A DNA stretch of 40,432 bases from a bacterium (GTDB lineage: Bacteria > SM23-81 > DAOVCL01), in assembly GCA_029932675.1 (NCBI GenBank), contig JAOZPP010000022.1, forward strand, positions 1 through 40,432, in the 5' to 3' direction. Numbering within the stretch: the first letter of the stretch is position 1; the number at the start of each line of letters is the position of its first letter. This document shows, in pieces, positions 3,101 to 23,648 of this stretch. The notes below the pieces were generated by a model. That model was not told where the DNA came from. It worked only from the letters and a program-made list of their open reading frames with translations, and made no database searches. A program made the translations under genes and the position numbers.

Positions 3101-3305
3101 GTATACTCTACCCAAAGATTGTTATGTTAAGCTAACTATCTACAACATCCTTGGCCAGAGGGTGGCGAGTTTGGTTGATGAAAAGCAGAGGGCGGGATAC
3201 AAAACCGTTAGGTGGGATGCGGGGGTGCTTTCCAGTGGAATTTACTTCTATCGGCTTCAGGCGGGGGATTTTGTGCAGACGAGGAAGATGGCGCTAATCA
3301 GATAG
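156..3305 (+). CDS. Secreted right-handed beta-helix (NosD/CASH-like) protein with type IX-like sorting domain
   Basis: A 1049-residue exported protein. Residues 1-23 form a signal peptide (KGLCR, hydrophobic core, cleavage near AGA|KEW). Residues about 30-930 are many imperfect 22-24 residue turns of the type GIxLxxSSNNTIxxNTxxxN, the hallmark of NosD/CASH parallel beta-helices, often carbohydrate-binding or surface proteins. The last 80 or so residues, starting near [12 protein letters not shown] and ending in GIYFYRLQAGDF..TRKMALIR, are a Por/T9SS type A sorting domain, so export to the cell surface is likely. AAAAGGAGGGAAG just before the ATG is a good ribosome binding site. Residues about 232-275 do not fit the helix repeat and coincide with palindromic DNA (885-970), so they look like an in-frame insertion. 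No catalytic residues could be assigned and the ligand is unknown. It appears monocistronic. Confidence 0.9.
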   Translation: MKGLCRITIVSLALLLCASFAGAKEWHVGPGQEYATIQAAVDTANSGDTITVHNGTYNENVEVDKGLMIRSLMGPDSTRVEAADSSEYVFRITADSVRLNGFTVTGATRRAGIRVDSLVQNCKITGNVVFNNYHGIFLYHASNNKVVDNTVHSDSAVGLYLYYTYNNMITGNTANSNGYYGIYLREASNDTVTNNTANSNNYHGILLYSSSDNMITENVVDSNSSVGIFLLYIPGSKIPTKIGLNKLSTPGNLEFQTGVPNLFAEKLNKLSTSGSCSNNTVINNTLSNNCWGLYLYLSDDNTISNNTINSNEWGITLYQTSNNTVTDNQFQNCGIWMWAEEVSQCNTHTIEGNIVNGKPLYYYKNESGITVPTDAGEVILANCTNMKVESINASFGTDGIELLYTHGSTVSNNTVNGNVFGIYTTFSDYNTISNNTAMSNEYGGIRLDDESDYNTVSYNTITSTDTIGAGLHVCWGSSNNIVSDNTVTFSKRNGIWIGRLSTNNIIPTGNTIQNNTVTSNDENGICLTDSAMSNSLLNNNISSSGFNGIAMHHSHNNTIRANTLHSNTDNGIWMDPSNGNTITDNIIRNNGASGIGMHASNNNSIKNNTTNSNEGDGIWTGSSYNNLIEGNEADSNCQHGICLSDNSGNNNVLNNNVSNNDDGIGLRENANCNRISDNTAESNTWSGIYVNSSSSDTISHNIVTLNSGVGGIEISDGSEYNVVSGNIAAHNGGGGISVNSSSNNTIIDNSACGNSCNGIGLGTSHNNLFNTNIADSNEYNGICLVNNCTDNTIINNTLRYNNANGIGIHWKSSNNFFEDNQIWGNIDAGICVSDTSDSNTFTGNLITENNDAGINIGSYSFYNRIYLNDLVANNGNAYVDPTSLNNVWNSPETTYTYRDSTYTNCLGNYWGDYTGSDANGDGIGETPYDILEENHDYYPLVEPADSFEIEGIKEQNGSRPIPYVFHLAQNYPNPFNPITKIKYTLPKDCYVKLTIYNILGQRVASLVDEKQRAGYKTVRWDAGVLSSGIYFYRLQAGDFVQTRKMALIR
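885..970. repeat. Palindromic repeat insertion inside the beta-helix gene
   Basis: CTTAACAAGTTAAGCAC occurs at 885-901 and again at 954-970, and its core CTTAAC-AA-GTTAAG is itself a palindrome. Between them the 13-mer GGAGTTCCAAACT stands twice in tandem (914-926 and 927-939) and contains a TTGGAGTTCCAA palindrome. The encoded residues interrupt the SSNNT-type helix turns, and the reading frame continues afterwards. I infer an in-frame insertion of a hairpin element of roughly 130-140 bp (about 849-980). Confidence 0.7.
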
Positions 3306-3646: not shown

Positions 3647-3665
3647 CCCCCTCTCTTAGAGGGGG
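3647..3665 (-). terminator. Stem-loop over the pccB stop codon
   Basis: CCCCCTCT (3647-3654) and AGAGGGGG (3658-3665) form an 8-bp stem with a 3-nt loop that contains the TAA stop of the carboxyltransferase gene. It lies where a terminator is expected for the minus-strand gene. No T-run follows, so it may instead protect the mRNA end. Confidence 0.35.
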
Positions 3666-5200
3666 ATGTTTCCGTGTTTCTTGGGGGGATTGGTGTCCCT
3701 CTTGTTCTCGATGAATTCAAGGGCCTCGATTAGCCTACGCCTCGTATCCCGGGGGGGGATTACATCGTCTATGTAGCCCTTGCTGGCAGTTATATAGGGG
3801 TTGGCAAATTTTTCCGTGTATTCCTTGACCAACTTTGACTTCAGGGCTTGGGGATCCTTTGCCTCTTTAAGTCGCTTCCTGTAAAGTATATTGACCGCAC
3901 CATCTGGGCCCATAACCGCAATCTCCCCGCTCGGCCAGGCGAAGTTGACATCTGCACGGGTATGTTTGGAGTTCATCACGCAATAGGCCCCTCCGTAGGC
4001 CTTCCTGGTAATCACTGTTAATCGGGGAACAGTAGCTTCACAGAAGGCATAAAGCAGCTTGGCACCATTTTTTATCACGCCACCCCATTCCTGAGCAGTG
4101 CCGGGGAGGAAACCAGGGACATCGACGAAGGTGACAATTGGTATATTGAAGCAATCACAGAATCTTACAAATCTGGCTCCCTTTGCCGCTGAGTTTATGT
4201 CCAGCACACCGGCAAGCACCGCTGGCTGGTTGGCCACTATGCCCACTGACCGGCCACCAAGCCTGGCAAATCCCACGATGAGGTTCTTGGCAAAGTGGGC
4301 GTGCACCTCCAAGAATTTTCCATCATCTATTACCCTTTTAATCACTTCCACCATATCATAGGGCTGAATCGGACTGGCCGGCACAATGGAGTCAAGCTCG
4401 GGGTCGCTCCGATTAGGGTCATCAGTGCATTCAACCATTGGTGGATCTTCAAGGTTGTTTTGCGGAATGTAACTTAAGAGCTCCTTAATTAGCTCTATAC
4501 ACTCGACTTCAGAGTTAGCAGCAAAATGGGCCACTCCAGACTTTTCATTATGCACCATAGCGCCCCCAAGCTCCTGAAATGTGACATCCTCATGGGTGGC
4601 AGCCTTAACCACATCCGGCCCGGTCAAAAACATATAAGAGGTCTCCTTTACCATAAACACAAAATCGGTCATTGCCGGAGAGTAGACTGCCCCACCGGCG
4701 CAGGGCCCCATTATGGCTGAAATCTGAGGGACAACTCCAGAGGAAAGGACATTGCGGAGGAATACATCTGTGTAACCAGCGAGTGAGTCAACCCCTTCCT
4801 GAATCCGGGCCCCACCTGAATCTTTTATGCCAATTATGGGGCATCCCCCCTTCATCGCCATATCCTGTAACTTGCATACCTTTTCTGCATAAGCCTTGGA
4901 GAGTGAGCCCCCGAATACGGTGAAGTCCTCGGAAAATACATAAACCTGCCTTCCGTTAACCCTTCCATATCCGGTTACCACCCCATCCCCCAGTATCTTC
5001 CGCTTATCCATATCAAAGTCGGTGCATCTGTGGGTGACAAACATATCCGTCTCCCGGAAACTGCCCTTATCAAGCAACAAATCGATCCTCTCCCGGGCGG
5101 TGAGCTTGCCACCGGCATGCTGCTTATCTATCCTCTCCTTACCCCCTCCGAGGAGGGCCTGCCTCCTTAGAGCCTCCAGTTCTTTAAGCTTATCTTCCAT
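3656..5200 (-). CDS. pccB: Acyl-CoA carboxylase carboxyltransferase (propionyl-CoA carboxylase beta / methylmalonyl-CoA decarboxylase alpha type)
   Basis: A 514-residue biotin-dependent carboxyltransferase that moves CO2 between carboxybiotin and propionyl-CoA or related acyl-CoAs. The N-terminus has [13 protein letters not shown], followed by the crotonase-fold oxyanion regions [18 protein letters not shown] and [12 protein letters not shown]. The C-terminal half has [25 protein letters not shown] and [15 protein letters not shown], and the length is normal for PccB/MmdA. An upstream extension of 16 codons is open, but AGGTGAGG just before the ATG at 5200 decides for MEDKLKEL. No biotin carboxylase or biotin carrier gene is in the window, so carboxylase and decarboxylase roles cannot be separated. 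The mutase genes beyond the toxin-antitoxin pair and MeaB further on suggest the propionyl-/methylmalonyl-CoA pathway. Confidence 0.9.
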
Positions 5201-5647
5201 TGCCCTCACCTGATAAAATCGGCCTTTTCTATCCCAAAACGGGCTCACCCAAATTGTTCACAGCAGATGGGCTCCCTTAAATAAAGGCGAGCTTGGGGAT
5301 ACGCTGATATCTATTTTAACGGGGTGAACACAGATTTCACAAATTAACCCGCTCTATTCATAACTTGCCGCTATTCATCCTCAACCACTGTGGCTGCCCC
5401 TTTGTAGGGACTCCGCCTTAGGGGAGTCCGAAAGGGCGAACAGACCTCTCAACCTCCGATAAATTCCGGTCTGTCTCTACGGGTGATACGAAAACTCCTA
5501 GATAACAAATTCAGTGCGAATAATCGGGCCAAAAACAAGATCTTGCAAAAGGGTAGTAGAAATATCTTTTGTCGACGAATCTCCTGTCCTGTTACAGGTC
5601 TTAAGTATACTCAAGCATCTACCGCAGCGTTAGCGGAAACTGGTAGG
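5201..5647. other. Gene-free stretch with a possible promoter and hairpins
   Basis: No gene is supported here. A possible minus-strand promoter for the carboxyltransferase gene is TTGTGA (5337-5342), 18 nt, TAAAAT (5313-5318), which is only fair. Hairpins include GGACTCC/GGAGTCC (5408-5429), ACAGACC/GGTCTGT (5440-5474) and CTACCGC..GCGG..GGTAG (about 5619-5646), the last directly beside the end of the DUF5615 reading frame. Confidence 0.5.
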
Positions 5648-6696: not shown

Positions 6697-7530
6697 TTAA
6701 GGGATGGGGTCCAACCTCAATTTGTCCCCCTCCTGGCTTAGGTAGCCCATACCGACCTGCGGATCATGTTCAAAGACGAGCAGCCAGCGCTCATTAAGTG
6801 CTCTATTTAATAGCTCCTTCTTTTTCTTCATTGTATCGAGGGGATAGAGATCGTAACCCATCACCCAGGGGGTCTTCAGGTGTGATGTCGTGGGAACCAG
6901 ATCCCCTAAGTAAAGGGCCTTCTTGCCCTTCGATTCCAGCAGCACCACTTGATGATTAGGGGTGTGCCCCCCGGTAACCATAACCCTCACCCCAGGGAGG
7001 AGCTCCCTTTCCCCCTCGATCAGCTCAAGTAGCCCTGCCTCTTGAATAGGGATTAGATTTTCTTTTAAATAACTTGCCCGAGTTCGTTCATTGGGACTTA
7101 TAGCATCCTCCCACTCCCCGCGTTGAATTATGTATCTTGCCTTGGGAAATGAAGGGACGATCTCCCCCCCTCCCCAACGGGTATTGCCCCCCGCATGGTC
7201 GAAATGGAGGTGGGTATTTATCACCATGTCTATCTCCTCCGCCCCCACCCCAACCCTCTGCAAGGAATCCAACAAACCGTTAGGTCTTTTGATCCTAAAC
7301 CTCTCCCTAAACTTCTCATCGAACTTGTCCCCAATACCTGTATCGACAAGTATCTTCTTACCCTCGATTTGAATTAAAAGGCAGTTCAGTCCAAGCTCAA
7401 TTCGATTCCATTCATCCGCGGGGTTGAGCTTATTCCAAACCGCCTTAGGAACCACCCCAAACATCGCCCCCCCATCCAGCCAAAAGGTCCCATCAGAGTG
7501 GAGGGAAATCTCCAGATCGCCTAATTTCAT
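6697..7530 (-). CDS. MBL-fold metallo-hydrolase
   Basis: A 277-residue metallo-beta-lactamase-fold hydrolase of the lactonase/thioesterase-like group, cytoplasmic (no signal peptide). The zinc motif HLHFDH is at residues 107-112 (H107, H109, D111, H112), followed by the third metal histidine in GGHTPNH, the bridging aspartate in YLGD, and a last histidine in FEHDPQ. The ATG overlaps the stop of the B12-binding mutase subunit as ATGA, so it is translated with the mutase. That coupling suggests a role linked to acyl-CoA or mutase metabolism, perhaps a thioesterase or clean-up hydrolase, but the substrate cannot be told from sequence. Confidence 0.85.
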
Positions 7531-7922
7531 CTCTTTACCGTCTCCTTAATCCATTCCACTATCTCCGTGGTCGGTGTCCCTGGGCCAAAGAGCTTCTTTA
7601 CCCCAAGCCTCTCTAACTTCTCCATGTCTTCCTTGGGGATTATACCGCCGCCGGAGACGATTATATGGCCTGCTCCTTTCTCCTGAAGCAACTTGAGGAT
7701 CCGCGGAAATATGGTCATATGAGCCCCGGAGAGGATGGATATACCAATGAGGTCAACATCCTCCTGAATTGCTGCTTCCACAATCTGTTCAGGTGTCTGA
7801 TGGAGACCAGTATATATAACCTCCATACCCGCATCTCTGAGGGCAGCGGCCACCACCTTTGCTCCTCTATCATGGCCATCAAGGCCAGGTTTGGCCACCA
7901 AGACCCTTATCTTTCCCTCCAT
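7527..7922 (-). CDS. Methylmalonyl-CoA mutase B12-binding (small/C-terminal) subunit
   Basis: A 131-residue cobalamin-binding subunit of a split acyl-CoA mutase. The base-off/His-on motif D15-G-H17-D-R-G20 (in [14 protein letters not shown]) binds the cobalt through H17; the nucleotide-tail pocket residues SGG (in IIVSGGGII) and GPGTP are present. A TTG at 7943 extends the frame, but AAGGGGGAG just before the ATG at 7922 fixes the start. It lies directly downstream of the catalytic subunit gene and overlaps the MBL gene by ATGA. The protein carries adenosylcobalamin for radical rearrangement together with the large subunit. Confidence 0.93.
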
Positions 7923-7939
7923 ATCTCCCCCTTGGCTAA

Positions 7940-9586
7940 TCAAAATATGATTGGCTCCTCATACTCGCCAAATTCCTCCTTCAAGACCCCGCACATCTCA
8001 CCGAGGGTAGCGTAAGCCCGCACAGCGTCAAGTATTCTGGGCATAAGGTTGGCTCCATTATGTGCTGCCCGCCTTAGCTCCCTCAGGCTTTCTTTAACCT
8101 TCTGATTATTTCTCTCCTTCCGAACTTCGTTCAGCCTTTCGATCTGATGCCTCTCCACCTCTGGTCGAATCTTGAGCAGTTCTATTTTAGGCTCCTCCTC
8201 CTCAATGAAGTCATTCACCCCCACAACGATCTTTTGCCTCTTTTCTACATCCCTTTGATACCGATAAGCAGACTCAGCAATTTCCCGTTGAAAGAAACCG
8301 GTCTCTATCGCCGGAATCACTCCACCTAATGAGTCGATCCTCTCAAAGTATTTGTAAGCCTGCTCTTCAAGCCTGTTGGTCAATGCCTCTACATAGTAGG
8401 AACCCCCCAGGGGGTCAATAGTGTTGGCTACCCCAGTCTCGTGGGCAAGAAGCTGCTGAGTCCTTAGGGCAATCTTCACTGCCTTCTCTGTGGGGAGGGC
8501 ATAGGTCTCATCCATCGAGTTGGTGTGCAAACTCTGGGTCCCCCCAAGAACTGCTGCCAATGCCTGAAAGGCTACTCTAACGATGTTGTTCTCTGGCTGT
8601 TGAGCCGTCAAAGTGCAACCCGCGGTTTGGGTATGGAATCTCATCAGCCAAGACCTGGGATCTTTTGCCCCATAGCGGTTCCGCATCTCCCTTGCCCATA
8701 TGCGTCTGGCAGCCCTATACTTGGCTATCTCCTCGAAGAAATCGAGGTGGGAATTGAAAAAGAAGGAAAGTCGGGGGGCAAACTTATCTACTGGAATACC
8801 AGCCTTGATCCCATAATCAACATAGGTGAACCCGTTTGCCAAGGTAAAGGCAAGTTCCTGGACCGCTGTAGCTCCAGCCTCCCTTATGTGGTAACCGGAG
8901 ATGGAGATGGTGTTCCACTTGGGAACCCGTTCTGAACAATAGCTGAGTATGTCCGTAATGATTCGCATCGAAGGCTCTGGCGGATATATCCAAGTTTTCT
9001 GCGCCTGATATTCCTTGAGCATGTCATTCTGGATGGTTCCAGTGAGACGCTCTGAGGGAACACCTTGCTTTTCGCCCACAGCTATATACATCGCGAGTAA
9101 CATCGCCGCAGGAGGGTTTATGGTCATCGATGTGGAGATGCTCTCCAGTGGGATTCCATCGAATATTATCTCCATATCACGGAGCGTATCTACTGCCACC
9201 CCACACCGACCCACTTCCCCTGCCGAAAATGGGTCATCCGAATCCCGACCATAAAGGGTAGGAAAGTCAAAAGCGACTGAAAGGCCTGTCTGCCCATGCT
9301 CCAAAAGATATTTATACCTCCTATTTGTGTCTTCTGGAGTGCCAAACCCGGAGAATTGACGCATAGTCCACAGTTTCCCCCTGTACATATTCACGTATAC
9401 CCCCCGGGTAAAGGGGTATTTACCCGGAAAGCCAAGATCACGCAAATAATCTAAGTGCTTGATCTCCTCCGGGGTGTACAAAATATCCACTGGTTCCCCT
9501 GAGACCGTCTCAAATCGATAACTTCTCTCTTTAAAATTATTTACCTCCCTATTCCAATCATCTCTGGCTTTCTTTATCTCGCTCAT
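7940..9586 (-). CDS. mcmA: Methylmalonyl-CoA mutase-type catalytic (large) subunit
   Basis: A 548-residue TIM-barrel subunit of an adenosylcobalamin-dependent acyl-CoA mutase, most likely (R)-methylmalonyl-CoA to succinyl-CoA. Seen are [49 protein letters not shown] and [10 protein letters not shown] (catalytic His region). The carboxylate-binding Arg of methylmalonyl-CoA mutases (R207 in Propionibacterium numbering) is present as R208, but the Tyr89 position is Phe (F78), as in isobutyryl-CoA mutases. So methylmalonyl-CoA is the best guess, with some doubt about substrate range. The start [11 protein letters not shown] has GGGGAGGAG upstream and a promoter close by (9611-9638). The B12-binding half is a separate gene just downstream, as in archaea and many anaerobes. 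MeaB at 20.6-21.5 kb would serve it. Confidence 0.93.
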
Positions 9587-9946: not shown

Positions 9947-11071
9947 ATGATGAAATTAACATCTGAACAAAGGCTTATCCAGGATATGGTACGCAAGTTT
10001 GCCTCAACTGAGTTACAACCCCTGGTTCCAGAGATTGATAAAGAGGCTACTTTCCCTCATGAAGTGATCAAGAAGCTTTCAGAGCTTGGTTTCTTGGGAA
10101 TAATTATTCCCGACAAATATGAGGGCGCCAACCTCGATACCCTAAGTTACTGCATAGTTATTGAAGAGCTATCTAAAGTCTGTGGTTCAGTGGGGATAAT
10201 TCTTATTGCCAACAACGCACTGGTTGCCCATTCCATTCTGAGGTACGGGAAGGAATCTCAAAAGAGCCATTGGCTTCCCTCACTGGCCAAAGGTAAGGTT
10301 ATCGGAGCATTTGCCCTTGCCGAGGAATTGGGAAGCTCCCTTTCTCCTGAGGTGGAGACCAGGGCAGAGAGGGTAAATGGTTATTACATAATCTCAGGTA
10401 GAAAGAGTTTCGTTGTCAATGCCCTCGCTGCAGAGCTATTTATCGTCTTCGCCACAACAGAGAAGGGACCAACCGCCTTATTGATAGAGAGGGGAACCCC
10501 GGGATTCAAGGTCACAGAAAAAGAGGAAACCTTAGGGGGACGCTCCTCCGGGATAGGCAACTTGGAGCTTAAAGAAGTTAAGGTAAATGAGGATAATCTC
10601 TTAGGCAAAGAAGGTGATGGCAAGCAAATCTGGGAAGACGCCCTTGATATGGCTGATATAGGAATAGGAGCTCTGGCTGTGGGGATTGGGCAGGCAGCCC
10701 TTGAGGATTCCATTCGGTATGCAAAGGAACGCCATCAATTCGGACGTCCCATAGGTGAGTTCCAGCTCGTCCAGGATATGCTTGTCGGGATGAAGACGAA
10801 GGTAGAGGCAGCAAAACTCCTCGTTTACGATGCCGCCCGTAAGGGGGACACAAAGGGGCACTTCTCAACGGAAGCATCAATTGCCAAACTCTTTGCTACT
10901 GATGCCGCCTTATTTGCCGGCACCAAGGCCATTCAGGTTCACGGGGGTTATGGCTATATAAAGGATTATCCCGTGGAGAGGTATTTTCGGGATGCCCAAT
11001 TTGCCCAAATCTGGTGTGGCCCTTCGTCTTGGCAAAAGGCCAAAATAGCAAAAACATTACTTGAAACATAA
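9947..11071 (+). CDS. Acyl-CoA dehydrogenase family protein lacking the catalytic glutamate
   Basis: A 374-residue protein with the full acyl-CoA dehydrogenase fold: N-terminal helical domain, middle beta domain and C-terminal domain (ERHQFGRPIGEFQLVQDM, IQVHGGYGYIKDYPVERYFRDA). Key residues differ from the two paralogues downstream. The YEGTSEIQ motif carrying the catalytic Glu is replaced by WCGPSSWQ, putting C357 where Glu stands. The flavin-contact stretch TEPxAGSD is AEELGSSL, and NGTKRFIT is SGRKSFVV. It therefore may not oxidise acyl-CoA in the usual way; a structural partner or a changed reaction is possible. The two ATGs at 9947 and 9950 cannot be told apart. It is first in the block behind a perfect promoter, so it is probably well expressed. 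Confidence 0.85.
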   Translation: MMKLTSEQRLIQDMVRKFASTELQPLVPEIDKEATFPHEVIKKLSELGFLGIIIPDKYEGANLDTLSYCIVIEELSKVCGSVGIILIANNALVAHSILRYGKESQKSHWLPSLAKGKVIGAFALAEELGSSLSPEVETRAERVNGYYIISGRKSFVVNALAAELFIVFATTEKGPTALLIERGTPGFKVTEKEETLGGRSSGIGNLELKEVKVNEDNLLGKEGDGKQIWEDALDMADIGIGALAVGIGQAALEDSIRYAKERHQFGRPIGEFQLVQDMLVGMKTKVEAAKLLVYDAARKGDTKGHFSTEASIAKLFATDAALFAGTKAIQVHGGYGYIKDYPVERYFRDAQFAQIWCGPSSWQKAKIAKTLLET

Positions 11072-11808: not shown

Positions 11809-12933
11809 ATGATACTAAGTGAATCACACAAGAAATTCCAGGAAAAGGTGAGGGATTTTGCCCAAAATGAGGTGGCTCCACTCTCCAGGGAATTGGATAA
11901 AGAAGCCAAATTCTCCTGGGAGCTCTTCCATAGGATGGGGGAGTTGGGCCTCTTGGGCATTCCCATACCGAAAAAATATGGAGGAGCAGGTCTTGATACT
12001 CTCTCCTATGCTATAGCAGTGGAGGAGGTAGGGCGGGTCTGTGGTTCCAACGGGATAGTGCTCGCCGCTCATACATCACTGGCTTGTTATCCAATATTTC
12101 TTGCCGGCAGTGAAGAGCAGAAGAAGAAGTGGCTTGTCCCCCTAGCCAGGGGGGAAAAGGCAGGAGCTTTTGGATTGACAGAGCCAGATGCAGGTTCAGA
12201 TGCTGCTGCTACAAAGACCACAGCCAAACTGGTTGATGATAAATATGTAATAAATGGGACCAAAAGGTTTATAACCTCCGGATATATAGGGGAAATAGTT
12301 CCCTTTGTGGCCACTGAGGACCCCTCAAAGCGTCACCATGGGATATCCGCTTTTGTGGTTGAGAAAGGGACTCCTGGATTTTCCCCGGGGAAGGACGAGG
12401 ACAAACTCGGGCTGAGGGGTTCTTATACATCTGAACTCATCTTTGAGGATTGTGTCATACCGAAAGAGAACAGGTTGGGGGCTAGTGGAGAGGGATTCAA
12501 GATATTTATGCAGACCCTTGATGGGGGGAGGATATCCATTGGTGCGCTTGCCTTGGGGATTGCCCAGGGAGCTTTCGATGCTTCGCTCAAGTATGTAAGG
12601 GAACATGAATCCTTAAAGAGATCCCAATTTATTCAGGGCCTCTTAGCCGATATGGGAACCTATATTGAGGCAGCCCGCGGGTTAATCTACGATGCAGCAG
12701 TATTAAAGGACAGAGGGCTACCACTTACCAGAAAGGCGGCTATGGCAAAACTCTACGCTTCCGAGATTGGGATGTGGGTCTGTTCCAAGGCAGTAGAGCT
12801 GCACGGGGAAGCTGGTCTCACTAACAGATACCCTGTAGAGAGGTTCCTTAGAGACGAGAAGCTAATGGAAATCGGCGAAGGAACCTCGGAGATTCAGCGG
12901 ATAGTTATTGCCCGGGAGATCCTCGGGAGATAG
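11809..12933 (+). CDS. Acyl-CoA dehydrogenase
   Basis: A 374-residue FAD-dependent acyl-CoA dehydrogenase (acyl-CoA to trans-2-enoyl-CoA, electrons to ETF). All key motifs are present: AFGLTEPDAGSDAA and NGTKRFITSG for flavin and substrate, then EIGEGTSEIQR with the catalytic glutamate E357. GGAGG 8 nt before the ATG supports the start. Residues after DASLKYVREHE are shorter than usual in the GRPI region (ESLKRSQFIQGLLADM), so chain-length preference may differ from the next gene. It is followed 54 nt later by a second active-looking paralogue and then by etfBA, its likely electron acceptor. Confidence 0.92.
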   Translation: MILSESHKKFQEKVRDFAQNEVAPLSRELDKEAKFSWELFHRMGELGLLGIPIPKKYGGAGLDTLSYAIAVEEVGRVCGSNGIVLAAHTSLACYPIFLAGSEEQKKKWLVPLARGEKAGAFGLTEPDAGSDAAATKTTAKLVDDKYVINGTKRFITSGYIGEIVPFVATEDPSKRHHGISAFVVEKGTPGFSPGKDEDKLGLRGSYTSELIFEDCVIPKENRLGASGEGFKIFMQTLDGGRISIGALALGIAQGAFDASLKYVREHESLKRSQFIQGLLADMGTYIEAARGLIYDAAVLKDRGLPLTRKAAMAKLYASEIGMWVCSKAVELHGEAGLTNRYPVERFLRDEKLMEIGEGTSEIQRIVIAREILGR

Positions 12934-12987: not shown

Positions 12988-14130
12988 ATGGATTTTGACC
13001 TAACTACTGATCAAAGGATGCTCCAGAAGATGGTGCGGGAAATCGCTACCAAGGAGTTGGAACCAGTTGCTTCGGAAATTGATCAGTCCGGTGAGTTCCC
13101 TTGGGAGAACATCAAGAAGCTTGCCAAACAGGGACTCTTGGGGGTGATAGTTCCTGAAAAATATGGCGGTGCAGGGTTCGACTTCATCTCGCTGGCTATC
13201 GCCATCGAAGAGATATCAAAGGTTTGTGCTACAACAGGGGTAATTGTTGCGGTCAACAACTCCCTTGCTGCTTACCCCATTTACCAGTTTGGAAATGAGG
13301 AGCAGAGAAAAAAATGGTTGCCCCTTTTGGCCAGTGGAGAAAAATTAGGCGCTATCGCCATAACCGAACCTAATGCCGGTTCTGATGTTGCCTCAATGGA
13401 GACCACTGCCCGGCTGGAGGGGGATTACTGGGTGCTCAATGGGACAAAGAGGTTCATCACCAATGGTGGCGAAGCAGGTATCTATGTGGTATTTGCCTAT
13501 ACCAACAAGGAATTACAGCATCGGGGTATATCCGCCTTTATCGTGGAAAGGGAAACCCCGGGGTTCTCTCTGGGGAAGCACGAGGATTTGATGGGCATTA
13601 GGGCAACTGCCAATTGTGAACTAATATTTGAGGACGCCAAGATCCCTAAGGATAACCTCTTGGGCGAGGAAGGCCAAGGTTTTAAGATCTGCATGCACAC
13701 CCTTGATGTTTCCAGGATTGACATCGGAGCCCAAGCTGTGGGGTTGGCCCAAGGCGCCTTAGACGCAGCCATTAGTTATGCCAAGGAGAGAAAGGCGTTT
13801 GGAAAACCCCTCTCTGAATTTGAAATGATCCAGTCAATGATTGCGGAGATGGCCACCCAGATACAGGCAGCAAGATTACTTGTTTACTATGCAGCATACT
13901 GCAAAGACAAGGGAATGTCCAGATTCTCCAAGGAGGCCTCTATGGGGAAGTGGTTTGCCTCGGAGGCCGCTGTCAATGCCACGAAGATGGCTGTTCAGAT
14001 TTATGGAGGGTATGGGTATACGAAAGACTACCCAGTGGAAAGATTTTACCGCGATGCCAAGATAATGGAGCTCTACGAGGGGACCTCAGAGATCCAAAAA
14101 ATTGTAATTGCCAGATCCCTCTTAAAGTAA
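12988..14130 (+). CDS. Acyl-CoA dehydrogenase (butyryl-CoA dehydrogenase-like)
   Basis: A 380-residue acyl-CoA dehydrogenase closest in look to bacterial short-chain enzymes. It has AIAITEPNAGSDVASM, NGTKRFITNGGEAGIY, ERKAFGKPLSEFEMIQSM, VQIYGGYGYTKDYPVERFYRDA and LYEGTSEIQK with catalytic E364. GGGAGG before the ATG marks the start. It stands 74 nt before etfB and probably feeds electrons to EtfAB. Together with the paralogue upstream it may cover different chain lengths or branched acyl-CoAs. Confidence 0.93.
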   Translation: MDFDLTTDQRMLQKMVREIATKELEPVASEIDQSGEFPWENIKKLAKQGLLGVIVPEKYGGAGFDFISLAIAIEEISKVCATTGVIVAVNNSLAAYPIYQFGNEEQRKKWLPLLASGEKLGAIAITEPNAGSDVASMETTARLEGDYWVLNGTKRFITNGGEAGIYVVFAYTNKELQHRGISAFIVERETPGFSLGKHEDLMGIRATANCELIFEDAKIPKDNLLGEEGQGFKICMHTLDVSRIDIGAQAVGLAQGALDAAISYAKERKAFGKPLSEFEMIQSMIAEMATQIQAARLLVYYAAYCKDKGMSRFSKEASMGKWFASEAAVNATKMAVQIYGGYGYTKDYPVERFYRDAKIMELYEGTSEIQKIVIARSLLK

Positions 14131-14204
14131 AAATACAAAATTGAGAACCCATAGGAAGAGATCAATAACAGAAGGGATTGTCTTTAACTAAAGAAGGGGG
14201 GATA

Positions 14205-14978
14205 ATGGACATCGTCGTCTGCATAAAGAGGGTTCCGGAGACGGCAGAGGCAGAAATTAAAGTGGATAGCTCAGGAAAGGACATACTTAAGGAGAGGTTA
14301 ACCTTTGACATAAATGAATCAGATAATTACGCCCTTGAGGAAGCCATCCTTCTCAAGGAAAAACGGGGGGGAACGGTGACCCTCATCTCCGTTGGGCCCC
14401 CGGAGTGTGAGGACACCATAAGGATGGGACTGGCCAAGGGGGCAGATCAGGCGATACGGGTATCCAATGAGGGGTTCGGCGAACTCGATGGATTCGCCAC
14501 CGCGGAGATATTGAAAAACACAATCCAGGACCTAAGCTATGACCTCATCCTCACCGGCTGTATGGCCACAGACGATGGATATTCGCAGGTGGGCCCAACT
14601 CTGGCTGAGCTTCTTGGTATACCCCATGCTGTCCTGGTCACCAAGGTCGATCTGCAAGATGGAAATGCCAGGGTGGAAAGGGAACTTGAAGGGGGATTAC
14701 TGGAAGCCCTGGAGATAAAGCTCCCCGCTCTTTTTGCCATTCAGACGGGGATAAATGAACCAAGATATGCCTCCCTCATCGCCATAAGAAGGGCAGCGGC
14801 AAAGGAAATTAAGGTGCTCAATGCCCAAGCCATTGGCTTAGAAAGGCCAACCTTGAGGACAAGAGTAGAAAACCTCTTTCCTCCACCGGTGGGAAAGAGG
14901 GCAGAGATCCTAAAGGGGGGAGCAGAAGAAACCTCTAAAAGGCTAGCACAAATCTACAAATCAAAAGGGATAATATAA
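14205..14978 (+). CDS. etfB: Electron transfer flavoprotein beta subunit
   Basis: 257 residues. MDIVVCIKRVPETAEAEIKV, then LTGCMATDDGYSQVGP, and the EtfB signature VERELEGGLLEALEIKLPAL..QTGINEPRYASL. A TTG at 14178 lengthens the frame, but AAGGGGGG before the ATG at 14205 decides the start. With EtfA it accepts electrons from the acyl-CoA dehydrogenases. Whether this ETF is bifurcating cannot be settled by eye; the Hdr-like genes right after it make an iron-sulphur flavoprotein the likely next carrier. Stop and etfA start are adjacent. Confidence 0.94.
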   Translation: MDIVVCIKRVPETAEAEIKVDSSGKDILKERLTFDINESDNYALEEAILLKEKRGGTVTLISVGPPECEDTIRMGLAKGADQAIRVSNEGFGELDGFATAEILKNTIQDLSYDLILTGCMATDDGYSQVGPTLAELLGIPHAVLVTKVDLQDGNARVERELEGGLLEALEIKLPALFAIQTGINEPRYASLIAIRRAAAKEIKVLNAQAIGLERPTLRTRVENLFPPPVGKRAEILKGGAEETSKRLAQIYKSKGII

Positions 14979-14990
14979 ATGGGGGGAGAA

Positions 14991-15965
14991 ATGGGGAAGA
15001 TATTTACCCTTGTGGAGCACAGAAGGGGCCAGATCCATGACATAAGCTTTGAACTACTCACTAAAGGAAGGGATCTGGCTGCGCAATTGAACAGCGAAGT
15101 GGTCGCCTTGGTCCTTGGGCATGGCACAGAGGAGGTCGTAGAGAGGGTTAAGGGGGAGGCCCATCAGGTGCTTTGGGTAAAGGGGGAATCGCTTAAGGAA
15201 CCTAACGCGGAGGCTTACCAGATCGTCCTCTCCCATATATTGAAGGAATACAACCCCTTTCTTACCCTCATCGGTCATACCGCTCTCGGTATGGACCTAG
15301 CCCCCCCGCTGGCTGCCTCTCTGGACATCCCCCTGGCCACCGACTGCGTGGGGATTGAACTGGAGGATAAAAGGGTTATCACCATCAGACAGCCTTACAA
15401 TGGCAAGCTCAACGCCAGGGTCTCATTTGCTGATGCCCCTGCCTTTATGATCACCCTTAGACAGGGCTCTTTCCCTTCCGAGGAGGGGAACCTAACAGGG
15501 AAGGTTGTAGATATCCCCTCGCCGCTTGAGAAGGAACCCGATTACCGGAGGTTTGTTGAGTATATAGAAGCGGCAGTAGGGGAGGTGGATATAACCCAAG
15601 CAGATGTGATAATCGCCGTGGGTAGAGGAATAAAGGAAAAGGAGAACTTGGCTCTCCTCGAAGACCTTGCCGATAGCTTGGGGGGCGTTCTGGCCTGTTC
15701 AAGGCCTATTGTAGATGAAGGCTGGTTGTCCAAGGATAGGCAGGTGGGCAGTTCGGGAAAGACAGTGAAACCAAAATTGTATATGGCCATTGGGATATCA
15801 GGGGCTTTCCAGCACATTACGGGAATGAAGAATGCCGATACAATAGTGGCCATCAACAAGGACCCGAACGCACCTATCTTCAATGTCGCCCACTATGGAA
15901 TAGTCGATGACCTATTCAAGGTCGTCCCCGTGCTCAAGAAGAAGATATTGGAGCTAAAAGGATAG
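14991..15965 (+). CDS. etfA: Electron transfer flavoprotein alpha subunit
   Basis: 324 residues from the ATG at 14991 (MGKIFTLVEHRRG), which has GGGGGAGAA before it; an ATG at 14979 directly after the etfB stop would add four residues. The C-terminal FAD domain is clear: VGRGIKEKENL, LGGVLACSRPIVDEGWLS, VGSSGKTVKPKLY and IGISGAFQHITGMKNADTIVAIN, then FNVAHYGIVDDLFKVVP. It forms the ETF heterodimer with EtfB. Only 4 nt separate it from the HdrA-like gene, so the two are almost certainly co-transcribed. Confidence 0.94.
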   Translation: MGKIFTLVEHRRGQIHDISFELLTKGRDLAAQLNSEVVALVLGHGTEEVVERVKGEAHQVLWVKGESLKEPNAEAYQIVLSHILKEYNPFLTLIGHTALGMDLAPPLAASLDIPLATDCVGIELEDKRVITIRQPYNGKLNARVSFADAPAFMITLRQGSFPSEEGNLTGKVVDIPSPLEKEPDYRRFVEYIEAAVGEVDITQADVIIAVGRGIKEKENLALLEDLADSLGGVLACSRPIVDEGWLSKDRQVGSSGKTVKPKLYMAIGISGAFQHITGMKNADTIVAINKDPNAPIFNVAHYGIVDDLFKVVPVLKKKILELKG

Positions 15966-15969
15966 CAAA

Positions 15970-18900
15970 GTGGATAACATAGGCGTATTCGTCTGCCACT
16001 GTGGAATAAACATTGCAGCAACCATAGACATCAAAAAGGTCGTTGAGGAAATAAGGCATTATCCGGGGGTAGCCCATGTGGAAGATTACATCTATATGTG
16101 TTCAGAACCCGGCCAGAACCTCATTAAGGAAAGGATAAGGGAGAAAGGGCTGAAGGGAGTAATAGTTGCTGCCTGCTCACCTACCCTCCATGAAGTCACC
16201 TTTAGAAGGACGGTGGCCTCAGCAGGCCTCAACCACTACCTTTTTGAGAATGCCAACATTCGTGAGCAATGCTCCTGGGTGCATGAAAATCGTCTCTGGG
16301 CCACTCAGAAGGCAATAAGGATTATCAGGTCCGTAGTTGAAAAGTTGAAGCTAAATGAGGCTTTGATGCCGATAAGGACACCGGTTACCAGGCGAGCTTT
16401 GGTAATCGGTGGTGGTATAGCAGGAATACAGGTATCACTTGATATAGCAGATGCTGGTTATGAGACGATCCTTGTGGAAAAGGAACCCTCCATAGGTGGC
16501 CATATGGCCCAGCTCTCTGAAACCTTCCCTACGCTTGACTGCTCCCAGTGCATACTCACTCCCAAGATGGTGGATGTGGGGCACCACCAAAAGATCAAAC
16601 TCTACACTTATTCCGAGATAGAGGAACTCTCCGGATATTTGGGCAACTTCCGGGTCAAGATCAGAAAGAAGGCCACCTTCGTGGATTGGGATAAGTGCAC
16701 TGGATGTGATGAGTGTACAGAATCCTGTCCGGTGAACATAAAAAGCGAGTTTGAAGTTGGGCTAACCGCGCGCAAAGCAATATATAGACCATTCCCCCAG
16801 GCAATTCCCAACAAGTTTGCCATAAGCAAATTTGGCATTCCTCCCTGTAAGGATGCTTGCCCAGCAGGGGTAAATGTCCCCGGCTATATCAACCTTGTCA
16901 AAAAAGGGAAATATAAGGAGGCCCTTGCTTTGGAGAGGGAGAAAAATCCCTTCCCCGCGGTATGTGGTCGGGTGTGCACCCATCCATGTGAGACAAAATG
17001 TAAGCGCGGCGAGATCGACGCCCCCCTTTCCATAAGGGCGCTAAAGAGATTTATAGCTGACCGGGAGGCAGTTAGAGAACCCCTGGAACTTCCTCCCCCA
17101 AGGGAAGGAAGGGTGGCGATAGTGGGCTCCGGACCATCTGGGCTTTCCTGTGCCTATGTACTTGCTAAAAAAGGATATAGGCCTACAGTCTTTGAAGCAC
17201 TCCCGATAACCGGGGGGATGCTCAGGATTGGGATTCCAGAATTCAGGTTGCCCAAGGAGGAACTAAAGAAAGATATCGATTACATCAGAAGCTGGGGGGT
17301 AGAGATTAAGCCAAATACCCCGGTAAAGGACCCGGAAGGTCTGCTAAAGAATGGTTATGATGCGGTCTATATAGCCACCGGGGCACATATTGAAAGGAGA
17401 CTCCCGGTCGAGGGCGAAGATTTAGAAGGGGTTTACTACGGCGTAGAATTCTTGAAGAAAGTAAATATGGGAGAGAAGGTAGCGGTGGGGGCTAAGGTAG
17501 CCATAATTGGTGGAGGGAACTCAGCAGTTGATGCAGCAAGGACAGCATTGAGATTAGGGGCGGAAAAGGTAACGATCATATATCGCCGGTCAAGGGTAGA
17601 GATGCCCGCAAATGATGAAGAGATAGAAAGGGCGGAAAAAGAGGGGGTGCAGATAGAATACCTTACAAACCCCAAACGGATAATCGGAAAGAACGGGAAG
17701 GTGGCGAAGATTGAATGCCTACGGATGAGGCTAGGAGCTCCGGATGCTTCAGGGAGGAGAACTCCCATTCCCATACCGGGCTCCGAATTCACCATACCAA
17801 TCGACACGATAATCCCGACAATTGGACAAACTCCGGATACCTCTTTTCTTCCAAAGAATACAAGGCTCAAACTGAGCGAAAGGGGGAACCGCTTTGTAGT
17901 CGATGAGGCCACATTGCAAACCACTGTTCCCGGCATATTTGCCGGTGGTGATGCCGTATTGGGGCCAGCCACAGTAATAGAGGCCATCGCTCAGGGAAAG
18001 AGAGCAGCAATTTCCATAGATAGATATCTGAGCGGGATGGGCCTCGAGGAGGGGAGAAAAGAGGAGCCCAAAAGGGTGGCCGAACCCAGCCTTATCGAGC
18101 TAAAGGGTATAATCCCCCAAGAGAGGGAGGAAGGGATAGTGCTGGAGGTGGCCGAGTCGATAAGCGGATTTGACGAGGTAGAGCTGGGTTTGACTGAGGA
18201 ACAGGCAAAGAGGGAGGCAGAGAGGTGCCTCAACTGTGGGGGGTGCTGTGAATGTATGGAGTGTGTGAGCGCCTGTGAGGCTGAAGCCATCATTCATGAC
18301 CAAAGGGATGAAATTCTGGAAGAGGAAGTCGGCGCCATTGTAGTTGCTACGGGGTATGAGTTGTATTCAGTGGAGAAAATGGCAGAATACGGCAGAGGGG
18401 AGTATAAAGATGTCCTAAACGGACTACAATTCGAGAGGCTCCTTTCTGCCTCCGGACCAACCCAAGGGAAGATTAGGAGACCATCAGATGGCAAGATCCC
18501 GAAGACAGTAGCCTTCATCTCTTGCGTTGGCTCCCGGGACCCGGAACACCATCTTCCTTACTGCTCAAAGATATGCTGCATGTATACGGCAAAGCACGCC
18601 CTTTTGTATAAGCATCATGTCCCAGATGGAGAGGCAATCGTCTTTTATCTGGACACGAGAACGGCGGGAAAGGACTACGAAGAGTTCTTCACCCGGGTAA
18701 GGGAAGAGGGGAAAGTGGCCTACATCAAAGGGAAACCCTCAAGGATCATAAAAGAGGGGGATGACCTGGTGGTGTGGAGCGTAAACCAACTCACCGGAGA
18801 GAAAATCCAGGTAAAGTGCGATATGGTTGTCCTCTCCACGGCCATAGTGCCATCCGGGAACGCCTTGGAGCTGGCCAAAAAGCTAAAGATCCACACCAAT

Positions 18901-19317
18901 CCTCATGGGTTCTTCTCCGAAGCACATCCCAAGCTACGACCAGTAGAATCGCTTGTCCCCGGATTCTACCTGGCAGGGTGTGCTCAAGGGCAGAAGGATA
19001 TCCCGGAGACGGTTGCCCAGGCATCGGGGGCTGCCTCTAAGGTTCTCGATATCTTCTCCCAGGAGGAACTCGCCCACGAGCCAATTGTGGCCACAGTCGA
19101 TGAAGAGATCTGCAGCGGATGTGAGATATGCATATCCGTATGCCCCTATGAGGCGAGGGAGATAAAGATGAGGGACGGAAGGAGAATAGCTGAAGTGAAT
19201 GAGGTATTATGCGAGGGATGTGGTGCCTGCGTTGCTGCCTGCCCATCTGGGGCCACCGAGCAGAGAAACTTCAGGGACCTCCAACTCTCTAAAATGGTAG
19301 AAGCCGCGTTTAAATGA
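15970..19317 (+). CDS. HdrA-like iron-sulphur flavoprotein with an inserted GltD-type NAD(P)H-binding module
   Basis: 1115 residues, GTG start with AAAAGGA upstream. Order of domains: HdrA N-terminus (IGVFVCHCGINIA, VIVAACSPTLHE); first FAD loop near residue 144 (VIGGGIAGIQ) with the HdrA motif HMAQLSETFPTLDCSQCILT; a 4Fe-4S site CTGCDECTESCP near 243. Then comes a GltD/glutamate-synthase small-chain-like module: PPCKDACPAGVNVPGYI near 292, CGRVCTHPCETKC, FAD loop VGSGPSGLSCAY near 382, NAD(P)H loop IGGGNSAVDAARTA near 511 and FAGGDAVLGPATVIEAI near 659. HdrA resumes with CVGSRD..YCSKICCMYTAKHA near 852 and ends with two ferredoxin clusters (CSGCEICISVCP, CEGCGACVAACP). I infer a hub joining ETF, NAD(P)H and ferredoxin electrons with the HdrBC protein encoded next. 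Flavin-based bifurcation or confurcation is plausible but not proven. Confidence 0.88.
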   Translation: MDNIGVFVCHCGINIAATIDIKKVVEEIRHYPGVAHVEDYIYMCSEPGQNLIKERIREKGLKGVIVAACSPTLHEVTFRRTVASAGLNHYLFENANIREQCSWVHENRLWATQKAIRIIRSVVEKLKLNEALMPIRTPVTRRALVIGGGIAGIQVSLDIADAGYETILVEKEPSIGGHMAQLSETFPTLDCSQCILTPKMVDVGHHQKIKLYTYSEIEELSGYLGNFRVKIRKKATFVDWDKCTGCDECTESCPVNIKSEFEVGLTARKAIYRPFPQAIPNKFAISKFGIPPCKDACPAGVNVPGYINLVKKGKYKEALALEREKNPFPAVCGRVCTHPCETKCKRGEIDAPLSIRALKRFIADREAVREPLELPPPREGRVAIVGSGPSGLSCAYVLAKKGYRPTVFEALPITGGMLRIGIPEFRLPKEELKKDIDYIRSWGVEIKPNTPVKDPEGLLKNGYDAVYIATGAHIERRLPVEGEDLEGVYYGVEFLKKVNMGEKVAVGAKVAIIGGGNSAVDAARTALRLGAEKVTIIYRRSRVEMPANDEEIERAEKEGVQIEYLTNPKRIIGKNGKVAKIECLRMRLGAPDASGRRTPIPIPGSEFTIPIDTIIPTIGQTPDTSFLPKNTRLKLSERGNRFVVDEATLQTTVPGIFAGGDAVLGPATVIEAIAQGKRAAISIDRYLSGMGLEEGRKEEPKRVAEPSLIELKGIIPQEREEGIVLEVAESISGFDEVELGLTEEQAKREAERCLNCGGCCECMECVSACEAEAIIHDQRDEILEEEVGAIVVATGYELYSVEKMAEYGRGEYKDVLNGLQFERLLSASGPTQGKIRRPSDGKIPKTVAFISCVGSRDPEHHLPYCSKICCMYTAKHALLYKHHVPDGEAIVFYLDTRTAGKDYEEFFTRVREEGKVAYIKGKPSRIIKEGDDLVVWSVNQLTGEKIQVKCDMVVLSTAIVPSGNALELAKKLKIHTNPHGFFSEAHPKLRPVESLVPGFYLAGCAQGQKDIPETVAQASGAASKVLDIFSQEELAHEPIVATVDEEICSGCEICISVCPYEAREIKMRDGRRIAEVNEVLCEGCGACVAACPSGATEQRNFRDLQLSKMVEAAFK

Positions 19318-20546
19318 TGGAAACTTCAACCACACCGATCTGGGAGCTGAGGGATATCATCATAGAGGCTGGGGCGACGGACATCTATAAGTGCTACCAA
19401 TGCGGGAAGTGTGCAAGCGTCTGTCCCTGGTACCAGACGGAGGCCGTTAATTTTCCCACCTATAAGTTCCCTTTAGCTGCCCAATTAGGAAGGATAGCCA
19501 GTAGTGAGGGGAAGGAGGAGTTGGCCAGGGAGGTAGAGGAGGTATATAGGTGCGTGGGGTGTGAGGCCTGTGTGGAACAGTGCCCTCAGGGAGTGAACAT
19601 CCCCAATACCCTGAGAGCTGTGCGCAGGATCCTTGTGGACTATGGTTCCTATCCAGATACCCTTAAGCCCGTTGTCTCTAAAATTCATAATGTGGGTAAT
19701 CCTCTCGGAGAACCAGGGGAGAAACGGAGGGATTGGGCCAAGGATCTGGCCATCCCCTTATTTCAACCAGGTATGGAGTACCTCTATTTCCCTGGCTGTT
19801 TTCCAGCCTATGACCCTCGGCTGCGCAAGGTAGCCACCTCCACGGCAAAGGTCCTAAAGAAAGCAGGGGTTTCTTTTGGAATATTGGGGGAGAAGGAATG
19901 GTGCTGTGGGGAGGCTATCAGAAGGGCAGGGGCAGAGAAGATCTTCCAAGAAGCAGCCCAATCCAACATCAGCGCATTTAGGAATGCTGGGGTGAAAAAG
20001 GTTGTGGTCACCTCCCCCCACTGTTATACCACATTCAAGAACGAATACCCCCTCCTGGGTGCAGACTTTGAGGTCTTCCATATCACCCAGCTTTTCTATC
20101 AACTTATAGAAGAAGGCAAACTCAAACCCCATCAACTGAGCCAACTCCCTGAACTGGGAGAACCCAACGACTCAAAGAGCCAAAGAGCCAAAGACCCCAT
20201 AAAAGTTGTCTACCATGATCCCTGCACCCTGGGAAGACAGAATGGCATCTATGAGGAGCCAAGGGGGGTCCTGAAGAACATCCCTGGCTTGGAGCTTCTG
20301 GAAATCGGGGATTTCTCCCACCAGTTCGCCCTCTGCTGTGGGGGGGGAAGTGGAGGACTTTGGCTTGATTGGCCCAAGGGGGAGAGAATGGCTGATATAA
20401 GGGTCCAGCAGGCCATAGAAACGGGAGCCAAGGTCCTCGCTGTCGCCTGCCCTTACTGTCTGCAAATGTTTGAGGACAGTGTTAAAACGATGAACCTCGG
20501 CCTTAAGGTAATGGACATCGCTGAACTCTTGGCCGAGTCATTGTAG
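19314..20546 (+). CDS. HdrC-HdrB fusion, heterodisulfide reductase-like Fe-S oxidoreductase
   Basis: A 410-residue soluble protein whose ATG overlaps the HdrA-like stop (ATGA). The N-terminal HdrC part has two 4Fe-4S sites, CYQCGKCASVCP and CVGCEACVEQCP. The HdrB part has two CCG domains: YFPGCF..EWCCGEAIRRAG and HDPCTLGR..FALCCGGGSGG..CPYC, which in the family hold non-cubane clusters that split disulfides. A hydrophilic linker with repeated SQRAK-like residues separates the CCG domains. No membrane helices are visible, unlike the membrane-bound Fe-S ETF oxidoreductases. It is probably the electron-accepting partner of the HdrA-like protein; the final acceptor is unknown. Confidence 0.88.
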   Translation: MMETSTTPIWELRDIIIEAGATDIYKCYQCGKCASVCPWYQTEAVNFPTYKFPLAAQLGRIASSEGKEELAREVEEVYRCVGCEACVEQCPQGVNIPNTLRAVRRILVDYGSYPDTLKPVVSKIHNVGNPLGEPGEKRRDWAKDLAIPLFQPGMEYLYFPGCFPAYDPRLRKVATSTAKVLKKAGVSFGILGEKEWCCGEAIRRAGAEKIFQEAAQSNISAFRNAGVKKVVVTSPHCYTTFKNEYPLLGADFEVFHITQLFYQLIEEGKLKPHQLSQLPELGEPNDSKSQRAKDPIKVVYHDPCTLGRQNGIYEEPRGVLKNIPGLELLEIGDFSHQFALCCGGGSGGLWLDWPKGERMADIRVQQAIETGAKVLAVACPYCLQMFEDSVKTMNLGLKVMDIAELLAESL

Positions 20547-20619: not shown

Positions 20620-21552
20620 TTAGTTGATAACCTGCCTCACTATCTCGTCTGCTATCCTGAAGGGATTTAACTCCTTCCTATATATCCTCTCTATTGCCTC
20701 TTCAAGCTCCCCCTTCTTAAACACTTGCCTTCTCAGCCGTTCCCTAATCTTTTCCTCGATAAGCTCGGTTATCCTCACCCTTATTCTCTCCTTCCGTTTA
20801 TCCTTCAGGCTGCCGCTGCCCTCCGCATAGTCCCTGTGGGAACCGATTGTTATGCCTAACAGCTCTATCCCCTCCCCTCTGGTAGCCACTGTCTGCAAAA
20901 TGGGATATTTCCACTTCCCCTTTTCCGAGCGCAGTTCATAGGTGAACTTGAGCTCGGTGACCATCCGATCTGCCCCTTCCCTGTCTGCCTTGTTCACCAC
21001 GATGATGTCCGCGATCTCCAACAGCCCCGCCTTCATTGCCTGAATCGAATCCCCCGATTCGGGGACCAGGACCACTATAGTGGTATCGCAGAGTTGGGCA
21101 ATATCGAGCTCCACCTGGCCAACCCCTACTGTTTCGATAATTATATAATCCATCCCATACGCATCGAGGACGAGGGCAACATCCTTGGTGGCTCGCGCAA
21201 TCCCTCCCAAGCTCCCCCTTGAGGCCATACTCCTGATGAAAACGCCCTCTTTTCCGGTAAGGGCCGACATCCTCACCCTGTCCCCAAGCAGTGCTCCCCC
21301 AGAGAATGGCGATGTGGGATCAACAGCGATGATGCCCACCCTCTTGCCTTCCTCAACGAACTTGGCAGTAAGTTTATCGACAAGCGTGGACTTACCTGCT
21401 CCCGGAGGGCCAGTTATGCCGATGTGGTAGGCTTGGCCGGAATAAGGGAAGAGGGCCTCTAAAATAGGTGCTCCCTCGCCATTCTCTACCCGGCTGATGG
21501 CCCGGGCAAGGGAGATCTTATCCCCTTTGAGCAGCCTGTTTACGATCTCCAT
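20620..21552 (-). CDS. meaB: Methylmalonyl-CoA mutase-associated GTPase MeaB (ArgK family)
   Basis: A 310-residue G3E-type GTPase that guards and reloads adenosylcobalamin mutases. Walker A GPPGAGKST is at residues 48-56; then AVDPTSPFSGGALLGDRVRM, IETVGVGQVELDIA (switch/Walker B) and VVNKAD (guanine specificity), with a C-terminal dimerisation arm rich in charged helices. Length is normal. It lies convergent to the electron-transfer block, about 11 kb from the mutase genes on the same strand. It is the expected chaperone for the split mutase here. Confidence 0.93.
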   Translation of the reverse strand: MEIVNRLLKGDKISLARAISRVENGEGAPILEALFPYSGQAYHIGITGPPGAGKSTLVDKLTAKFVEEGKRVGIIAVDPTSPFSGGALLGDRVRMSALTGKEGVFIRSMASRGSLGGIARATKDVALVLDAYGMDYIIIETVGVGQVELDIAQLCDTTIVVLVPESGDSIQAMKAGLLEIADIIVVNKADREGADRMVTELKFTYELRSEKGKWKYPILQTVATRGEGIELLGITIGSHRDYAEGSGSLKDKRKERIRVRITELIEEKIRERLRRQVFKKGELEEAIERIYRKELNPFRIADEIVRQVIN

Positions 21553-23633: not shown

Positions 23634-23648
23634 CTTCACCTCCATCTC

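Follow-up and report, generated by a model that had tools for sequence, protein, structure and literature searches.

In a 40,432-nucleotide stretch of contig JAOZPP010000022.1 (assembly GCA_029932675.1; hereafter the window), from an uncultured, anaerobic bacterium of the GTDB lineage SM23-81; DAOVCL01, genes for acyl-CoA dehydrogenases (Acd) are followed head to tail by genes for both subunits of an electron-transferring flavoprotein (ETF), for an HdrA protein that carries a GltD-type NAD(P)H unit within it, and for an iron-sulfur protein of the HdrCB kind. On balance, and with some reservation, the products of this operon are interpreted as a soluble and reversible acyl-CoA/ETF-ferredoxin-NAD(P)H oxidoreductase, in which HdrA would be the bifurcating subunit.

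Architecture of the HdrA(GltD) fusion

The anatomy of the operon products is well supported. Open reading frames (ORFs) and domain searches give the order acd-acd-acd-etfB-etfA-hdrA(GltD)-hdrCB, which confirms the contiguous arrangement behind acyl-CoA dehydrogenases that had been read in a first-pass annotation, made by a model from the letters and ORFs alone. From etfB to hdrCB, all genes lie on the + strand and are separated by 0-4 bases or overlap by 4 bases. EtfB (ORF 14178-14978, likely ATG start at 14205; Pfam ETF) and EtfA (14979..15965; Pfam ETF and ETF_alpha) precede the 1115-residue fusion (15970-19317), which begins with GTG 4 bases past the EtfA stop and whose own stop is overlapped by 4 bases by the start of hdrCB (19314..20546; 410 residues). 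The interval flagged by that annotation, 15970-20546, holds hdrA and hdrCB only, with etfBA just upstream.

Pfam and NCBIfam searches place HdrA2 at residues 4-299 and about 750-1112 of the fusion, and a PRK12771/GltD match at residues 289-780, and they recognize two pyridine-nucleotide/FAD folds; these folds, the cluster motifs and a total of 40 cysteines bear out the earlier description of an HdrA-like protein with two FAD/NAD(P)H-binding regions and several Fe-S sites. Residues 3-287 and 759-1115 align to HdrA of Methanothermococcus (5odc_A), with the Fe-S motif cysteines kept. The inserted ferredoxin domain of HdrA has two 4Fe-4S motifs (C243-C253 and C759-C769), and the GltD insert (about residues 290-757) separates one from the other; this location of GltD is the hallmark of type III HdrA. 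All parts are encoded on the + strand. The first part of HdrA (residues 1-285; 15970..16824) comprises the N-terminal Fe-S domain, one half of the FAD domain, in which C194 is equivalent to Cys197, and the motif C243-C253. The insert (16837..18240) holds Fe-S clusters at C293-C344, an FAD fold, an NAD(P) fold and the C-terminal C753/C756, and the second part of HdrA (residues 758-1115; 18241..19314) contains the other 4Fe-4S motif, the remainder of the FAD domain, where E822 (E356) and K875 (K409) lie, and a C-terminal two-cluster ferredoxin domain. E356 and K409 have been named as key residues for flavin bifurcation by HdrA (PMC12054007), and their equivalents, together with that of Cys197, are kept in every ETF-linked HdrA checked.

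Within the GltD unit, the CxxC formed by C753 and C756 lies at the C-terminal end, as in StnC and NfnABC, whereas it is N-terminal in NfnB. Because these cysteines directly precede the HdrA cluster motif in the same chain, the GltD and HdrA clusters should be neighbors. In addition, the Glu ligand of the proximal 4Fe-4S cluster, which accompanies the bifurcating flavin of NfnB, is replaced by Lys359, at the position of K170 in StnC, and Lys is found there in 13/13 fused proteins checked. As the FAD of StnC has been reported to be non-bifurcating, the HdrA FAD is a better candidate for bifurcation than the GltD FAD.

The NAD(P)-binding Rossmann domain of the insert (about residues 476-625; 17395..17844, + strand) has a GxGxxA motif (GGGNSA at 514) and a double Arg (YRRS at 538), as in NADPH enzymes, and the cofactor is probably NADPH. 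The NAD-type GxGxxG, reported as a non-defining trait of archaeal type III HdrA, is absent from this fold, although that description (PMC12054007) may concern another motif. In two related inserts (loci L009 and L116) the double Arg is replaced by His-Glu and His-Gln, which suggests NADH rather than NADPH, and the preference may therefore vary across relatives.

The ETF and HdrCB partners

Bifurcating ETFs of group 2 are characterized by the motifs RXGV and GXXSPTXV in the beta subunit and RPXFGG in the alpha subunit (PMC10734219). The window ETF has KERL, RTRV and RQPYNG at these sites, none of which fits, and its clade as a whole has KERL or KDRL for RXGV, RQxYxG for RPXFGG and no SPTXV. Control ETFs carry all of the group 2 motifs, as does a second ETF of the window genome (contigs C23/C96), with REGV, SPTQV and RPAFGG. 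Moreover, in an EtfA tree built by a quick method, all HdrA-adjacent ETFs fall into one clade (SH-aLRT 100), separate from the group 2 references. The test for bifurcating features of EtfAB that the first-pass annotation had proposed is thus negative: motifs and tree rule out a group 2 ETF, which leaves the flavin of HdrA as the candidate for bifurcation.

HdrCB consists only of a Fer4 dicluster and two CCG domains, and its best solved relative is mycobacterial EtfD (9ojn, 196 bits), compared with 31 bits for HdrC. EtfD is also the top structure match (E 1e-22) of an AlphaFold model of HdrCB (pLDDT 75, six sequences). The noncubane cluster of EtfD has His583 as a cap, which renders it non-catalytic (PMC13083937). 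HdrCB carries equivalents of this histidine and of the ligands C637, C672, C673, C709 and C712, and the histidine, in the context S-P-H-C, is present in all ETF-linked HdrCBs; among the compared genomes, HdrCBs that are not linked to ETF (L047, L020, L021, L028 and L037) have no capping histidine. Two complete CCG motifs, which mark HdrB, are not found, as the first motif is short of one Cys (SPHC); the second is complete, and by homology its cluster would be capped by His. There is no counterpart of the membrane heme b domain of EtfD and the EMO-type enzymes. HdrCB is accordingly read, from its sequence and modeled fold, as a probable soluble ETF acceptor rather than a disulfide reductase. 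The suggestion that one complex joins ETF, NAD(P)H, ferredoxin and a disulfide site therefore stands in part: the operon does bring together Acd and ETF, an HdrA with a GltD-type NAD(P)H unit and an Fe-S protein of the HdrCB type, while a disulfide-reducing site is unlikely because of the EtfD-like character and the cluster-capping histidine of HdrCB, grounds on which that candidate was rejected.

Recurrence of the ETF-HdrA linkage

Relatives of EtfA were sought in the WOR-3 phylum (55/147 genomes at E<=1e-80), the phylum of L009 (5/17 genomes) and Desulfobacterota (27/395 genomes at E<=1e-100). In 34 of 62 loci, chosen non-randomly by EtfA similarity and in some cases stopping at contig ends, an HdrA lies within 6.5 kb of this ETF clade: 4/4 in the window phylum, a small one represented by four genomes, 14/37 in the WOR-3 phylum, 4/5 in the L009 phylum and 12/16 in Desulfobacterota. 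Other ETFs have HdrA nearby in 0/11 loci, with control flanks of only about 1.5 kb. The linkage is beyond chance, as it recurs in at least four phyla and in genomes independent of one another. In a genome of the window phylum (G003), the order is thiolase, hydroxyacyl-CoA dehydrogenase, Acd, Acd, HdrCB, EtfBA, HdrA(GltD), MvhD and enoyl-CoA hydratase, adjoined by genes for a kinase and a phosphotransacylase. MvhD follows HdrA in this operon and in that of L040; none is found in the fused operons of the WOR-3 phylum. Many WOR-3 phylum operons have a gene of the beta-eliminating-lyase family after HdrCB (L111:12429-13916; similar ORFs in L106, L110, L112, L117, L118, L120 and L123).

The NAD(P)H unit is modular: one and the same loop of HdrA carries GltD, NuoEFG or no insert. 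Among WOR-3 phylum operons that are syntenic in other respects, HdrA has GltD in some (L106, L110-L112, L146 and L147) and lacks it in others (L117-L120). In L129:7595-12554 and L143:942-4026, the break in HdrA falls within its inserted ferredoxin domain: the first half is fused to NuoE and the second to NuoG-like domains, and in L129 a NuoF gene follows the first. In seven Desulfobacterota loci (L195, L196, L202, L203, L205, L207 and L208), NuoF and a NuoG/formate-dehydrogenase-like protein precede EtfB-EtfA-Acd and two tandem HdrAs. The first of these HdrAs bears a GltD unit without the block equivalent to window residues of about 476-625, the NAD(P) fold, in 7/7 operons, which are related to each other and hence not seven independent events. 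L197, with no NuoF, retains the NAD(P) domain. Phylogeny of the fused HdrA, a check proposed at the outset, does not support a single origin of the insert: the GltD label requires at least 7 changes on well-supported branches of the HdrA tree, and gain is indistinguishable from loss. In the GltD tree, the ETF-linked inserts group in a single clade, to which inserts of double HdrAs from WOR-3 genomes also belong and from which those of Desulfobacterales are separate.

Proposed electron flow and alternatives

In the proposed route, Acd would exchange electrons with a conventional, non-bifurcating EtfAB, which would dock on HdrCB, a soluble EtfD-like Fe-S wire to the HdrA FAD as the putative bifurcating flavin. 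GltD would swap hydride with NAD(P)(H), NADPH being the likelier cofactor, and connect to the same FAD through its own clusters, and the low-potential arm would terminate at ferredoxin, most likely via the C-terminal ferredoxin domain of HdrA. EtfAB-HdrCB would thus replace HdrBC-heterodisulfide in the high-potential arm, with GltD or NuoEFG as the mid-potential pair and ferredoxin as the low-potential partner, and the net reversible reaction would be 2 NAD(P)H + enoyl-CoA + Fd(ox) = 2 NAD(P)+ + acyl-CoA + Fd(red). The potentials are about -10 mV for enoyl-CoA/acyl-CoA, about -320 mV or lower for NADPH and -420 to -500 mV for ferredoxin. By these textbook values, NADPH-driven reduction of enoyl-CoA and ferredoxin would be downhill, and the reverse would be feasible only with a high supply of reduced ferredoxin, which Rnf, encoded in the window genome, could give. 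The butyrate-type cluster of G003 would be compatible with either direction.

Several points weigh against this route. The GltD unit occupies the arm that passes low-potential electrons to ferredoxin in methanogen HdrA and has been argued to block the normal ferredoxin site (PMC12054007), so ferredoxin either has to react at a different site or may be uninvolved. Many relatives in the WOR-3 phylum have EtfBA-HdrCB without an adjoining HdrA, and HdrCB may therefore act alone or with a distant HdrA. Furthermore, the AlphaFold model of HdrA (pTM 0.49, junctions at pLDDT <50) is too poor for interdomain cluster distances. Loci with Acd-EtfBA-HdrCB or EtfBA-HdrCB and no HdrA nearby are L121, L122, L123, L124, L131, L133, L134, L136-L140, L148 and L149.

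If ferredoxin is indeed uninvolved, GltD, HdrA and HdrCB would form a linear wire from NADPH through ETF to enoyl-CoA, a non-bifurcating NAD(P)H:ETF oxidoreductase. The occupied ferredoxin arm (PMC12054007) fits this scheme, as does the fact that neither MvhD nor ferredoxin genes are found in the window operon. It is nevertheless unlikely, since HdrA retains the E356/K409 equivalents and a complete C-terminal two-cluster domain, which would be costly for a plain wire, and oxidation of saturated acyl-CoA with NAD(P)+ would be impossible by a linear route at textbook potentials. It is more doubtful still that the third port is of the MvhD type, serving H2 or formate rather than free ferredoxin, with confurcation depending on a hydrogenase or dehydrogenase from another locus, for example the Hdr/Mvh cluster that the window genome has on contig C9. 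The MvhD genes of the G003 and L040 operons and the hydrogenase-like genes of that large cluster speak for such a port, but the gene is missing from the window operon and the fused WOR-3 phylum operons alike.

That the complex is an Hdr reducing some new disulfide, with ETF as an extra partner, has in its favor the CCG domains shared with HdrB and the complete second CCG motif; it is highly improbable, since every ETF-linked member has the capping histidine and resembles EtfD in sequence and fold, and the equivalent EtfD cluster is described as non-catalytic (PMC13083937). Two bifurcation sites, NfnB-like in GltD and methanogen-like in HdrA, would accord with the homology of the insert to NfnB and have been raised for ANME-1 HdrA9-11 (PMC9012536), but with Lys in place of Glu at the proximal cluster, as in StnC, and no NfnA partner in the operon, they are very hard to credit here.

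Operon and genome setting

The three acyl-CoA dehydrogenases upstream of EtfBA, all recognized by Pfam, are encoded on the + strand at 9947..11071 (Acyl-CoA_dh N/M/C), 11809..12933 and 12988..14130, a triple layout that recurs in loci of the WOR-3 phylum; the third has 70-84% identity to the neighboring Acd of operons from that phylum. On the - strand, the operon is adjoined by genes for methylmalonyl-CoA mutase (small and large parts, 7527..9586), an MmdA-like methylmalonyl-CoA decarboxylase alpha/carboxyltransferase (3656..5248) and the GTPase MeaB (20620..21552), which suggests propionyl-CoA or branched-chain acyl-CoA metabolism.

The window genome (3.03 Mb, 97% complete) was found to contain no Fer4_ETF_QO and no CCG-domain proteins beyond those of the window and the contig C9 cluster. 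The latter (L047-L049) is a large hdr cluster with several HdrAs, including an HdrA-GltD-HdrA double fusion of 1503 residues, and with hydrogenase-like and 2-oxoacid ferredoxin oxidoreductase-like genes. Elsewhere in the window are secreted repeat proteins that bear sorting tails for type IX secretion (T9SS; 156-3305 and 27097-32397) and two tandem minus-strand ORFs (21732-25643), the first of which (21732-23645) has DUF3857/DUF3858 domains.

Relation to known systems and implications

The HdrA/GltD fusion itself is already known under three names. In type III HdrA of ANME-1 and Bathyarchaeota (PMC12054007) and HdrA9-11 of ANME-1, described as an NfnB-like insertion (PMC9012536), a GltD/NfnB unit sits in the same ferredoxin domain as in the window. 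However, type III HdrA is archaeal, with mvhADG described for Bathyarchaeota and ETF unmentioned in PMC12054007, whereas the window fusion is ETF-linked. HdrL of Desulfobacterium autotrophicum has been described as a fusion of HdrA and glutamate synthase with an NADH site (PMC2702500); it differs in having mvhD next to it and, in one copy, dsrABC after it, and the inserts of related Desulfobacterales fusions form the separate clade in the GltD tree. HdrCB shares its homologous region, cluster ligands and role beside ETF with mycobacterial EtfD (PMC13083937) and the EMO-type ETF:menaquinone oxidoreductases; these are membrane proteins with heme b that reduce quinone, whereas HdrCB is soluble, has no membrane part and would feed HdrA.

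Bcd-EtfAB and EtfABCX couple acyl-CoA/enoyl-CoA, NAD(P)H and ferredoxin, as is predicted for the window complex, but have the bifurcating flavin in an ETF with the motifs that the window ETF lacks, HdrA being the candidate site here. StnABC and NfnABC have a GltD domain with the proximal-cluster Lys and the permuted CxxC that serves a separate bifurcating unit, which is NuoF/HydB-like in those enzymes and HdrA in the window system. FlxABCD-HdrABC (Ramos et al. 2015, as cited in PMC6687939) combines an Hdr complex with an NADH unit, although Flx is a different NADH module, and a Fix-HdrABC complex, Hdr joined to an ETF-type unit, is named for Asgard archaea (PMC9723677). No description of an ETF-HdrA(GltD)-HdrCB complex was found in the openly accessible literature; of the unrecognized route claimed in the first-pass annotation, novelty thus extends to the ETF-linked form and not to the fusion.

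It has long been asked how anaerobes can, in energetic terms, pass high-potential acyl-CoA electrons on to NAD(P)H, H2 or formate, and the known answers are bifurcating Bcd-EtfAB and membrane-bound EMO/EtfD with quinone. The chances appear evenly balanced that the window operon represents a widespread and hitherto undescribed class of HdrA-based bifurcating or confurcating acyl-CoA oxidoreductases of anaerobes, in which the role of bifurcating flavin has moved from ETF to HdrA, a soluble EtfD-like protein stands in for the quinone-linked one, and GltD and NuoEFG are exchanged at one HdrA loop. If true, this would be a third and fully soluble answer, in poorly known phyla such as the WOR-3 phylum and in some Desulfobacterota. 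The swap between GltD and NuoEFG at a single loop, accompanied by loss of the NAD(P) domain made redundant, is also a natural experiment on the point at which NAD(P)H electrons enter HdrA.

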